Under the pieces are notes generated by a model, which made no database searches, had not been told where the DNA came from, and worked only from the letters and a program-made list of their open reading frames with translations. A DNA stretch of 64,000 nt, from assembly GCF_000955805.1 (NCBI RefSeq), contig NZ_JYOA01000007.1, positions 93,382 to 157,381 of the forward strand, read 5' to 3'. This document shows, piece by piece, positions 16,506-18,804 of this stretch. The position numbers were made by a program, and so were the translations under genes. The first letter of the stretch is position 1. Each line of letters starts with the position of its first letter. The DNA comes from Pseudomonas sp. 21. GTDB taxonomy: Bacteria; Pseudomonadota; Gammaproteobacteria; Pseudomonadales; Pseudomonadaceae.

Positions 16506-16538
16506 GTGCTGACCGCGCTCGCGACCGCATTGGCTCTT

Positions 16539-16608
16539 TGTAGGGGCGAGCGAACCGCCCGACATCGAGTTCGTGGGCAAACGGGTTCGCGAGCAAGCTC
16601 GCTCCTAC
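16539..16608. repeat. Degenerate REP element upstream of rarD
   Basis: The right arm (GGTTCGCGAGCAAGCTCGCT..., 16584-16608) is intact. The left arm (16539-16556, GTAGGGGCGAGCGAACC) has lost internal bases. Confidence 0.75.
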
Positions 16609-16750
16609 AGGCAATGCCCTTCTGCGTAACGGCAACGTTACGCACATTCTTTCAGACCCTACCGTCATCACCCGCGGCGGCACAGACAAGCCTTCGCGAG
16701 CGCCCTAGAATTGTGCGGCCACTCATTAGCTGCCTAACCAAGGATGTTCC

Positions 16751-17638
16751 ATGGCCACCGCCAATCCCCGCCGGGGCTACGCCCTGGGCTTGACTGCCTA
16801 CGTCATCTGGGGGCTCTTCCCGATCTACTTCAAGCTGCTCGAACGCATTCCCGCCCTGGAAATCATCACCCATCGCGCCATCTGGTCGGCGGTGTTCGGC
16901 GCCCTGCTCCTGCTGGTGTGGAAGCATCCCGGCTGGTGGCGCGAGCTGCGCGAGAACCCCAAGCGCATCGCCGTACTCACCACCAGCGGCCTGCTGATCG
17001 CCAGCAACTGGCTGGTCTACGTCTGGGCGGTGAACAACGGCCACATGATCGAGGCCAGTCTGGGCTACTACATCAACCCGCTGATCAACGTATTGCTGGG
17101 CCTGGTGATCCTGCGCGAACGCCTGCGTCCGCTGCAGTGGGTGGCGGTCGGCCTCGCCGCGCTGGGCGTGGCGCAGCAACTGTGGCAACTGGGCAGCCTG
17201 CCCTGGGTATCGCTGGCGCTGGCGCTGACCTTCGGCTTCTACGGGCTGATCCGCAAGCAGGCGCCGGTGGCGGCGTTACCGGGGCTGGTCGTCGAAACCT
17301 GGATCCTGCTGCCACTGGCGATCGGCTACCTCGTGCTGTTCGCCGACGGCCCGAGCGTGCATGCGGACTTCTGGACCACCAAGGACGCCATCTGGCTCGC
17401 CGCCGCCGGCCCGATCACCCTGGTGCCACTGGTGTGCTTCAACGCGGCCGCGCGCCACCTGCCCTACGCGACCCTGGGCTTCCTGCAATACCTGGCGCCG
17501 ACCCTGGTGCTCTTGCAGGCAATCCTGCTGTTCGGCGAGCACCTGGACACCACGCGCCTGATCTCACTCTGCTGCATCTGGGCGGGCCTGGTCGTCTACA
17601 GCCTGGACATCTGGTATCGCCTCTCCCGCGGTGACTGA
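16751..17638 (+). CDS. rarD: RarD-type EamA/DMT transporter
   Basis: A 295-residue inner-membrane protein of the drug/metabolite transporter superfamily, with two EamA domains and ten predicted membrane segments. The N-terminus RRGYALGLTAYVIWGLFPIYFKLL and the block LEIITHRAIWSAVFGALLL are RarD signatures. VWAVNNGHMIEASLGYYINPLINVLLG is also typical. The transported substrate of RarD is unknown; the name comes from a chloramphenicol-sensitivity phenotype. ATG 16751 lies ten bases after an AAGGA site. Followed by a stem-loop at 17657-17687. Confidence 0.92.
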   Translation: MATANPRRGYALGLTAYVIWGLFPIYFKLLERIPALEIITHRAIWSAVFGALLLLVWKHPGWWRELRENPKRIAVLTTSGLLIASNWLVYVWAVNNGHMIEASLGYYINPLINVLLGLVILRERLRPLQWVAVGLAALGVAQQLWQLGSLPWVSLALALTFGFYGLIRKQAPVAALPGLVVETWILLPLAIGYLVLFADGPSVHADFWTTKDAIWLAAAGPITLVPLVCFNAAARHLPYATLGFLQYLAPTLVLLQAILLFGEHLDTTRLISLCCIWAGLVVYSLDIWYRLSRGD

Positions 17639-18285
17639 TCATTAATTGATCCACCGCCTGCAAGCCACACCAGCTGTGGCTTGCAGGCAGTCACCCGCAG
17701 ATTGTCCACAGCTCTATCCCGCGATTGCGGGGATAACGGCTGTTTTTTCCACAAGCCACTCCGCCACGTTCTTCTCGGTGCTGCCCTGGCTGTCACCACG
17801 CGATGACATGATCAATATTTGACCAAACCTGCGTAAGCCCCGTGAAATCTAGCGTGCAGAGAGATTCCCCCGGCTTTTCCACAGGCTGATCCCCGCTTCG
17901 TGTGGACGGATGGGCGCCGCCCGCTCAGAAACTGGACAACTCCGTGAAGCCCAGAAGCGGCGTGGCCTGCAGCGTTCCATGAACGGCTTCTCCACAGACT
18001 CTTCCAGTGGATTTGTGCACAGCGCCTGGAAGGTTCGGAGCTCCGTTTTCTCTGAGCCTCTGCTGTACAAAAAACAAGCAGCAGCATCAAACACCCGGAA
18101 ACAGGGCATCACAGACACTTATCAACAGAATGCCCACGGCGCGATCCCCGCGATCTGTGCACAGTTCCAAAGTTCGACGTGGATAAGAAGATTGGCGCCA
18201 AGCCCAAATGAAATGGGCCCCCTGTCAATTCATCAACAGAGAACCCACAGGTTTTTCCACAAGACGGGTGGTCAGAGCAGCGTAG
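17639..18285. other. Non-coding region with a cluster of DnaA-box-like 9-mers
   Basis: A 647-nt gap between convergent rarD and the GcvR-like gene. No gene is convincing here. It holds at least eight 9-mers within one mismatch of TTATCCACA or TTATNCACA: TTTTCCACA at 17745, 17875 and 18253; TTGTCCACA 17702; TTCTCCACA 17988; TTGTGCACA 18013; TTATCAACA 18119; and TTATCCACG on the minus strand at 18178-18186. None is a perfect TTATCCACA. An AT-rich patch (ATGATCAATATTTGA) lies at 17808-17822. This is far denser than chance; a DnaA-binding site or origin-like element is the natural inference. Confidence 0.65.
17657..17687 (+). terminator. Stem-loop behind rarD
   Basis: A perfect 13-bp inverted repeat (CCTGCAAGCCACA at 17657-17669, complement at 17675-17687) with a 5-nt loop. 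No T-run follows, so it may be a weak terminator or transcript-end protector. Confidence 0.55.
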
Positions 18286-18804
18286 CTATTCCCCGCTGTG
18301 GAAATTCAGTTCCACCATCAGGTCATCGGCCAGCTCTTCCAGCTTCTGCTGCAGGGTTTCCAGTGGCAGGGTCAACGGCACGGCCAGCAGCGCCTCGGCG
18401 TGGAACAGCGGCTCGCTGCTCATCGGCGCGGGGAGCACCTCGGTGGTCAGGCTCTCCAGGTTCACGCCGTGTTCGGCCAGCAACTGGGTGATGTCGCGGA
18501 CGATGCCGGGGCGGTCGTTGCCCACCAGGTCGAGATGGATCGGCTTCCAGTTGCAGGCCGGCTCGATGCCGCTTTCCGCCAGCAGCACGCGGATGCCGTG
18601 CTCGCTCAACTCCTGCAGGCCTTCCACCAGTTCGTCATAGCCCTCGGCGGGCACGGCCACGCGAAGGATCCCGGCGAACTGCCCGGCCATGCGCGACATG
18701 CGGCTTTCCAGCCAGTTGCCGCCGTGGGCGGCGATGCATTTGGCCACGCGCTCCACCAGACCGGGCTGGTCCTGGGCGATGACGGTCAGTACGAGGTGGT
18801 CCAT
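18286..18804 (-). CDS. GcvR-like double ACT-domain protein
   Basis: A 172-residue protein with two ACT domains. The first (residues ~4-75) begins HLVLTVIAQDQPGLVERVAKCIAAHGGNWLESRMSRMAGQFAGI. The second (~90-165) begins IHLDLVGNDRPGIVRDITQLLAEHGVNLESL. In E. coli GcvR, this architecture binds glycine and restrains GcvA, the activator of the glycine cleavage operon. No gcvA or gcv genes are in view, so the partner here is unknown. It starts 20 bp after the end of the acetyltransferase gene on the same strand and may be co-transcribed with it. Confidence 0.85.
   Translation of the reverse strand: MDHLVLTVIAQDQPGLVERVAKCIAAHGGNWLESRMSRMAGQFAGILRVAVPAEGYDELVEGLQELSEHGIRVLLAESGIEPACNWKPIHLDLVGNDRPGIVRDITQLLAEHGVNLESLTTEVLPAPMSSEPLFHAEALLAVPLTLPLETLQQKLEELADDLMVELNFHSGE

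Follow-up and report, generated by a model that had tools for sequence, protein, structure and literature searches.

Among the closest known systems to the locus described here are the DARS sites of Escherichia coli, at which, in the excerpts of PMC4245941, PMC8682772 and PMC5742627 drawn on, ADP-DnaA molecules on boxes I and II meet head to head and lose their ADP. Box I opposes boxes II and III, with equal spacing in DARS1 and DARS2 (PMC5742627, excerpt). DARS1 is said to need no protein factor (PMC4585315, excerpt); DARS2, with six DnaA boxes over 455 bp (PMC4585315 and PMC4245941, excerpts), needs Fis and IHF, and its core is described as conserved specifically in E. coli-related gammaproteobacteria (for both, PMC4245941, excerpt). 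In the original search for DARS sites, at most one mismatch to the DnaA consensus was allowed in each of the paired boxes I and II (PMC5835720, excerpt). In the MG1655 sequence, the DARS1 core (bioD-uvrB) reads TTATCCACT(+), 5 bp, TTATCCACA(-), 3 bp, TAATACACA(-), and the DARS2 core (rppH-mutH) reads TTATTCACC(+), 5 bp, CTATCCACA(-), 3 bp, TTCTTCACA(-).

The present study concerns a window of 64,000 nucleotides (the whole stretch of DNA that was analysed; C40:93382-157381 of a 6.33-Mb Pseudomonas genome), in which a first-pass annotation had drawn attention to a dense cluster of DnaA-box-like 9-mers in a non-coding gap. That annotation missed the tandem array of one module, which includes a Fis-like site and a hairpin, as well as the recurrence of the module around oriC and the DARS-core geometry of its boxes.

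Results

The gap and its DnaA boxes

The gap (17639-18285) lies between a RarD-like EamA transporter gene on its left (16751-17638, +) and a GcvR-like ACT-domain gene on its right (18286-18804, -). These genes are convergent, as had been recognized before, and promoter boxes are therefore ruled out as an explanation of the cluster. An RNA gene in the gap was also ruled out, the sole Rfam match in the window being the RsmY regulatory RNA gene at 86-209 (-; RF00195, 98.3 bits). Upstream of rarD, at about 16520-16615, there are GCGAGCAAGCTCGCTCCTACAG-type stretches, which we take to resemble Pseudomonas REP elements. The GcvR-like protein is 100% identical to those in records of P. pseudonitroreducens, P. 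nicosulfuronedens and Pseudomonas sp. PDM18, which places the host species near P. nitroreducens. The cluster is indeed far from dnaA: a domain match to this gene (C40:632603-633085) is found on the same contig about 522 kb off, adjoined by an oriC-like site (C40:633668-633941) that contains five strict boxes and is likewise about 522 kb away, so that the rarD/gcvR-like gap lacks the adjacency to dnaA or replication genes that marks an oriC.

Eight 9-mers within one mismatch of TTATNCACA are present in 17639-18285 (nine for TTWTNCACA), which bears out the earlier count of at least eight, and TTTTCCACA occurs three times in the gap (17745, 17875 and 18253), also as reported; that the boxes are on both strands is barely true, as seven of the eight are on the + strand. 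For the one-mismatch scan, 464 kb of the genome were sampled: the window and 20 further stretches, 12 chosen for box clusters (oriC included) and eight irrespective of boxes, and the gap is the densest 647-bp window in this sample. Only one of 4514 windows (647 bp, step 100), the one in the gap, reached nine near-matches to TTWTNCACA, and background windows (n=2171) contained 0.23 on average and 5 at most. Similar density in many ordinary gaps, which the first-pass annotation had named as the finding that would speak against it, was not encountered in the 464 kb sampled.

The whole genome was scanned with the strict pattern. TTWTNCACA occurs eight times in the whole 64-kb window, against 0.84 expected (0/100 shuffles reach 8), and 179 times in the 6.33 Mb, with 34 matches for the reversed-pattern control. 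As to whether the gap is the second-ranking peak after oriC, a check proposed with the first-pass annotation, it stands behind oriC (five) with three strict boxes in 516 bp and is level with at least three other places. Among the matches listed, three or more strict boxes within 600 bp are found at oriC (five), in the gap, and at C40:508672-509231, C40:677776-677835 and C40:823024-823503, and only the last of these other places belongs, as the gap does, to the module family described below. The survey of box places rests on 100 of the 106 copies of TTATCCACA in the genome.

Anatomy of the array

By its sequence, the gap is a head-to-tail array of a module of about 111 bp, with four tandem copies and one half copy. 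The order within the module is a Fis-like site, an imperfect inverted repeat and three DnaA boxes, III-3 bp-II-5 bp-I, with box I inverted. M1 (111 nt; 17631-17741, +) consists of a Fis-like site at 17637-17651, the inverted repeat at 17656-17688, box III at 17702-17710 (TTGTCCACA), box II at 17714-17722 and the inverted box I at 17728-17736. An extra TTTTCCACA box lies downstream of M1 (17745-17753, +), and among 25 genomes an exact box is present there only in this one. M2 (17804-17914, +) has its Fis-like site at 17810-17824, box III at 17875-17883 (TTTTCCACA), box II at 17887-17895 and box I at 17901-17909, and M3 (17917-18027, +) has the corresponding elements at 17923-17937, 17988-17996 (TTCTCCACA), 18000-18008 and 18014-18022. 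M4 (18059-18169, +) is degenerate: its Fis-like site (18065-18079), box II (18142-18150) and box I (18156-18164) are in place, box III (18130-18138) is poor, and TTATCAACA is found at 18119, 11 bp upstream of that box III. The covariance model R1, built from 17 modules of this genome, gives 89.8, 80.3, 79.6 and 66.9 bits for M1 to M4, values that are not independent because the four were in its seed. M5 (18241-18275, +) is a core-only half module with box III at 18241-18249, box II at 18253-18261 (TTTTCCACA) and box I at 18267-18275, and R1 found no full module there.

The hairpin described earlier is real and slightly longer than had been given: the inverted repeat of M1 has perfect 14-bp arms (17656-17669 and 17675-17688) and a 5-nt loop. 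The flank of M1 reads GCAAGC-N13-GCTTGC-N17-box III, and the other modules of the array have weaker repeats at the same register. Across 24 non-redundant modules, pairing exceeds the background at exactly one register (0.48 versus 0.21-0.34 elsewhere); the repeat covaries modestly, with 59% of cells paired and 13 of 500 shuffles reaching the score. It is not evident in the single-copy relatives described below.

The AT-rich patch at 17808-17822 was also correctly identified before and overlaps the Fis-like site of M2. The Fis consensus is quoted as GNNYANNNNNTRNNC in an excerpt of PMC4585315. A set of 55 modules was compiled from 63 R1 matches by retaining those of 111 or 122 nt with more than 37 bits (a 101-nt match and seven that scored under 36 bits were dropped), and a GNNYRNNNNNYRNNC 15-mer occupies one fixed place in 55/55, at a background of 0.0069 per position and with 82% AT in the central 5 bp. 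This 15-mer matches the relaxed consensus in 55/55 modules and the strict one in 15/55, counts that are partly circular because the modules were found with R1, which contains those columns; a Fis site beside the core is thus predicted. An IHF site was rejected as an identity of the AT-rich motif, as no IHF match lies inside it, and so was an Anr/Fnr site, the half-sites being the wrong way round with respect to what we take to be the consensus. In the gap, the sole IHF match (one mismatch) is at 18120, inside M4, which leaves the gap without an IHF site of the DARS2 type, and no IHF site of the datA type, between DnaA boxes, was found there.

Box III is the strong box of the arrays, with TTNTCCACA at this place in 28/30 modules and at box II in one. 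In 12 of the 55 modules, which are 122 nt long, boxes III and II are separated by 11 extra bp, about one helical turn. The extension is present in most modules of the largest array, which lies at C40:822190-823611 (L067) and, in relatives, at about -0.19 Mb.

Geometry of the module core

The module core (++-, spacings of 3 and 5 bp) is the reverse complement of the DARS1 and DARS2 cores in box order, orientation and spacing. A core matrix derived from 14 non-redundant Pseudomonas modules, containing no E. coli data, was used to scan 220 kb of E. coli DNA on both strands, and DARS1 took rank 1 (19.1 bits) and DARS2 rank 2 (15.7 bits). Rank 3 (13.4 bits) fell to a site without known link to DnaA, rank 4 to one that is 316 bp away from the core of DARS2, and rank 7 to a site between glyY and queG with two boxes 3 bp apart; this interval is the place of datA. 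In the E. coli spacing control (144 spacings), (1,5) is slightly above (3,5) on the single best score (23.8 versus 23.1), and (3,5) is first on the second and third best scores.

Conversely, a box matrix made solely from the six E. coli DARS boxes, at spacings of 3 and 5 bp, placed M1, M3 and M2, in this order, at the top of 127,932 positions of the window; M5 was fourth (17.8 bits) and the degenerate M4 had rank 24. When 256 spacings were compared with this log-odds approach, (3,5) was alone at the top in the gap itself (4 versus a mean of 0.09-0.33), and it was first in 1.1-kb stretches of 80 named records, both at 20 bits (137 versus a mean of 1.59) and at 16 bits (197 versus 6.52). Three further orientations were tried, and the (3,5) ++- count is higher than the best of them. 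It should be noted that this test was devised after a plain mismatch count had given a weak result: no triple within 5 mismatches was found in the gap itself, and in 484 kb (3,5) was narrowly ahead at 5 mismatches (4 versus 3), tied at 4 (2 each) and without any triple at 3. In the arrays of G022 and G015, (3,5) is clearly ahead in the plain count as well (14 versus 4).

The similarity to DARS1 extends beyond the boxes. A flank matrix covering the 47 nt before box III, with the boxes excluded, placed the DARS1 flank at rank 6 of 439,460 positions, and the DARS2 flank, at rank 42,425, is unlike the modules. In M1-M3, boxes II and I each deviate from TTWTNCACA by 2-4 positions, beyond the one mismatch allowed in the original DARS search.

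Conservation and distribution

The GcvR-like and rarD-like genes are convergent, and the gap between them is kept, in 25/25 genomes of the genus. An alignment of the gap from 22 of these (leaving out G004, G014 and G017, with gaps of 486, 383 and 211 bp; 14 rows listed) consists of conserved islands between freely varying sequence, and the box positions, whose conservation in related species had been proposed as a check, are indeed conserved. Identity is 0.877 in box columns, 0.771 in Fis columns and 0.635 in the rest of the gap, and 0/646 circular shifts of the box mask reach the observed value. Box III of M2 has a mean identity of 0.99 in the 22 genomes; each of the 14 rows listed has either TTTTCCACA or TTATCCACA at 17875, and at least G008 has no exact box. 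At the position of 18253, TTTTCCACA, TTATCCACA, TTATGCACA and TTATACACA replace one another between species, and all four are within the DnaA consensus. A core of at least 14 bits is present on the gap side in 70/80 named records and in 0/144 control pieces.

A first profile, made from M1-M3 of this gap in 12 genomes, detected full-length copies (E as low as 3e-16) elsewhere in the genome under study, within stretches chosen for box pairs, and nothing below E = 1 in eight 20-kb stretches chosen irrespective of boxes. R1 found 14-28 copies per genome in 25/25 genomes of the genus (E <= 0.01), and matches in 55/59 genomes and 18/19 genera of the family (E <= 0.001), the four misses all belonging to genus g12. 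In the order, 44/76 genomes have matches at E <= 1e-4, and the 41 of 73 outside the family have one to three each. Because the genome searches scored the best 50-150 candidates per genome, the copy numbers are lower bounds.

The 20 out-of-family matches inspected, from 19 families, were the best-scoring ones and not a random draw (two further G083 matches were omitted). All have the III-3-II-5-I core, to which the E. coli box matrix gives 25.9-38.9 bits. In 19 of the 20 a Fis-like 15-mer starts 64-67 bp before box III, a count that is partly circular because R1 contains the Fis columns. Box II is TTATCCACA in 13/20. In the genome under study there are two single-copy elements, and with the E. 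coli box matrix they outscore every other position in 498 kb. The better one lies beside an RmuC gene (C33:81526-81637, -; L236:3527-3638) and has a strong core of the DARS type, TTCTCCACT GAG TTATCCACA GCTTC TGTGGATTG; its counterpart in G022 is at 1639 kb (L235:3370-3481). The second (C2:207954-208065; L237:3455-3566) is located between a MarR-like regulator gene (judged by eye) and another gene, and has, by eye, a strict Fis-consensus site. The order-wide distribution suggests that one element exists in two forms, as a single DARS-like copy and as a multiplied array.

Placement around oriC

Strong matches form 6-8 loci in each of ten complete genomes from the genus, nearly all within about 1.3 Mb of oriC. 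After grouping (R1, E <= 1e-6), the distance from dnaA is no more than 42% of the half-genome for 70/71 loci, a limit that was chosen post hoc with the map already in view. The sole exception, G024 at 1832 kb, is a 112-nt match of the single-copy type, and weaker matches (E up to 0.01), mostly single 112-nt ones, occur farther out. The typical places are about -1.2, -0.8, -0.53, -0.19, +0.17, +0.51 and +0.82 Mb (the map uses rounded sizes for G050, G063 and G076), and the rarD/gcvR-like gap is the one at about 0.5 Mb. As gene order is shared, the cases from different species are not independent. Three genomes of other genera exhibit a looser confinement around oriC. With crude gene calls, seven arrays of the genome under study are intergenic, and one extends 8 bp into the end of an adjacent frame. 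The array places are similar across the genus, and thus a conserved distance from oriC, as described for DARS, applies here too, but the arrays are oriC-proximal, unlike the E. coli DARS.

Apart from the arrays, at least 27 of the 106 TTATCCACA boxes are crowded into about 57 kb on one side of dnaA (C40:633668-691085; L063-L066), in mixed, mostly + orientation up to 668.7 kb and only in - orientation from 671 kb; this crowding is similar to the enrichment of boxes near the origin that an excerpt of PMC12371093 reports for E. coli. At about 44 kb from oriC, three strict boxes, on both strands, fall within 60 bp at C40:677776-677835 (L065), and the module is absent. An inverted TTTTTCACA box pair lies in an AT-rich stretch at C38:477483-477530 (L070).

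Discussion

We lean towards the view that the array is a Fis-assisted, DARS-derived site, which would act on the nucleotide state of DnaA or on its free amount. DnaA would bind the strong box III first, and boxes II and I would then make two DnaA molecules face each other, in the manner of E. coli DARS. From its site some 50 bp off, Fis would bend the DNA, and the complex would be switched by growth phase. The output would fall on DnaA itself, as exchange of ADP-DnaA to ATP-DnaA and/or as holding of DnaA; both the binding of the two proteins and the direction of the effect are predicted from the motifs. Judged by its anatomy, the module could act like E. coli DARS with Fis alone. The array is not classed as a DARS proper, because boxes I and II of the modules in the window have more than one mismatch and such an activity is only predicted.

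Among the features that speak against a DARS-like function, the head-to-head contact in E. coli is made on boxes I and II, which are weak here, and the arrays are gathered around oriC, a region that in E. coli contains datA and not DARS. Because box III is strong and boxes I and II are weak, and because the arrays are near oriC, where E. coli has datA, our preference for a DARS-derived site is a restrained one, and DnaA titration or datA-like inactivation is retained as a possible, albeit less likely, explanation. In that case the arrays would soak up DnaA or speed ATP hydrolysis soon after the origin region has been copied, and re-initiation would be blocked. The origin-proximal placement on both sides, the example of datA near the E. 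coli oriC, the strong box III, the eight near-consensus boxes offered by the gap and the rank of the datA-region site with the core matrix are all consistent with such a role. However, titration needs neither an inverted third box at a fixed 5-bp spacing nor a Fis-like site nor a DARS1-like flank, and the lack of a datA-type IHF site in the gap argues against inactivation in the manner of datA. The placement would also fit an organisation of the origin domain, in which Fis and DnaA or other proteins form nucleoprotein landmarks that shape or position the surrounding 2.5 Mb or so of the oriC region and hardly affect DnaA activity: the loci are roughly regularly placed, and P. aeruginosa is reported to have a distinct 1.4-Mb Ori region (PMC3642087, excerpt). 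Yet this would leave the DARS geometry and the flank similarity unexplained, and elsewhere in the order, beyond the family, there are relatives with one to three matches per genome, so that we regard it as improbable.

The first-pass annotation had proposed a DnaA-titrating locus of the datA/DARS sort or an origin-like element. The former stands as far as a DnaA-site locus of this sort is concerned; the latter found no support, the 14-28 similar modules per genome being hard to reconcile with a second replication origin or an autonomously replicating element, possibly the P. aeruginosa oriC2. The many DnaA boxes and the record of two autonomously replicating P. aeruginosa elements (PMC4403523, excerpt) would favour such an element, but an oriC-like site with five strict boxes already adjoins dnaA, no run of AT-rich repeats was seen by eye in the gap, and its GC content is 0.56; we therefore consider a second origin very unlikely indeed. 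Two or three strict boxes are also found at some other places that lack the module, as chance or ordinary intergenic sequence would allow, but several other box pairs turned out to be tandem copies of the same module, and the conservation of the gap, its geometry and its box density leave chance practically no credit.

To return to the DARS-derived site, 6-8 loci flank oriC on both sides within about 1.3 Mb, and therefore their copy number should rise stepwise as the forks pass, which would tie DnaA activity to the progress of replication. A bolder and more doubtful extension is that these Fis-gated, DARS-derived loci, mostly 250-450 kb apart, are a distributed counter that times replication in the Pseudomonadaceae. 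If this were true, the forks would duplicate the loci in turn, each step would reset ATP-DnaA or free DnaA, and the counter would do the job of SeqA/Dam sequestration in E. coli, a system that to our knowledge is absent from Pseudomonas.

No report of DARS in Pseudomonas was found in the titles and abstract openings of the literature searched. The kind of element is known. To the extent that could be checked, its presence in many Pseudomonadales, its union with a Fis-like site in modules of about 111 bp, the tandem arrays and the origin-centred placement are undescribed. The DARS geometry now extends to many Pseudomonadales, multiplied into arrays in the Pseudomonadaceae and centred on the origin in the genus. 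Control of DnaA in Pseudomonas is thereby made directly testable, and many natural variants are available for defining what a DARS core needs.

Compared with known systems, the array shares its DnaA-box types with the Pseudomonas oriC beside dnaA, which differs in its box layout, in the AT-rich run alongside and in being one site. The origin-proximal DnaA-box clusters of B. subtilis are also among the closest systems, set beside the array by description and not by sequence, and we know of no Fis-DARS module in them. Like E. coli datA, the array is a DnaA-box cluster in a gap near oriC; unlike datA, which is IHF-dependent, it has no IHF site of that kind. DARS2 has the same core geometry, and its dependence on Fis has a counterpart in the Fis-like site of the array, whereas its need for IHF and its dissimilar flank set it apart. 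DARS1 is a single copy, in contrast to the array with its tandem modules, Fis-like site, position near oriC and weak boxes I and II; nevertheless, its core orientation and 5/3 spacing are identical, it is also intergenic, and its GCAAGC-N13-GCTTGC-N17-box III flank is the same as that of M1.
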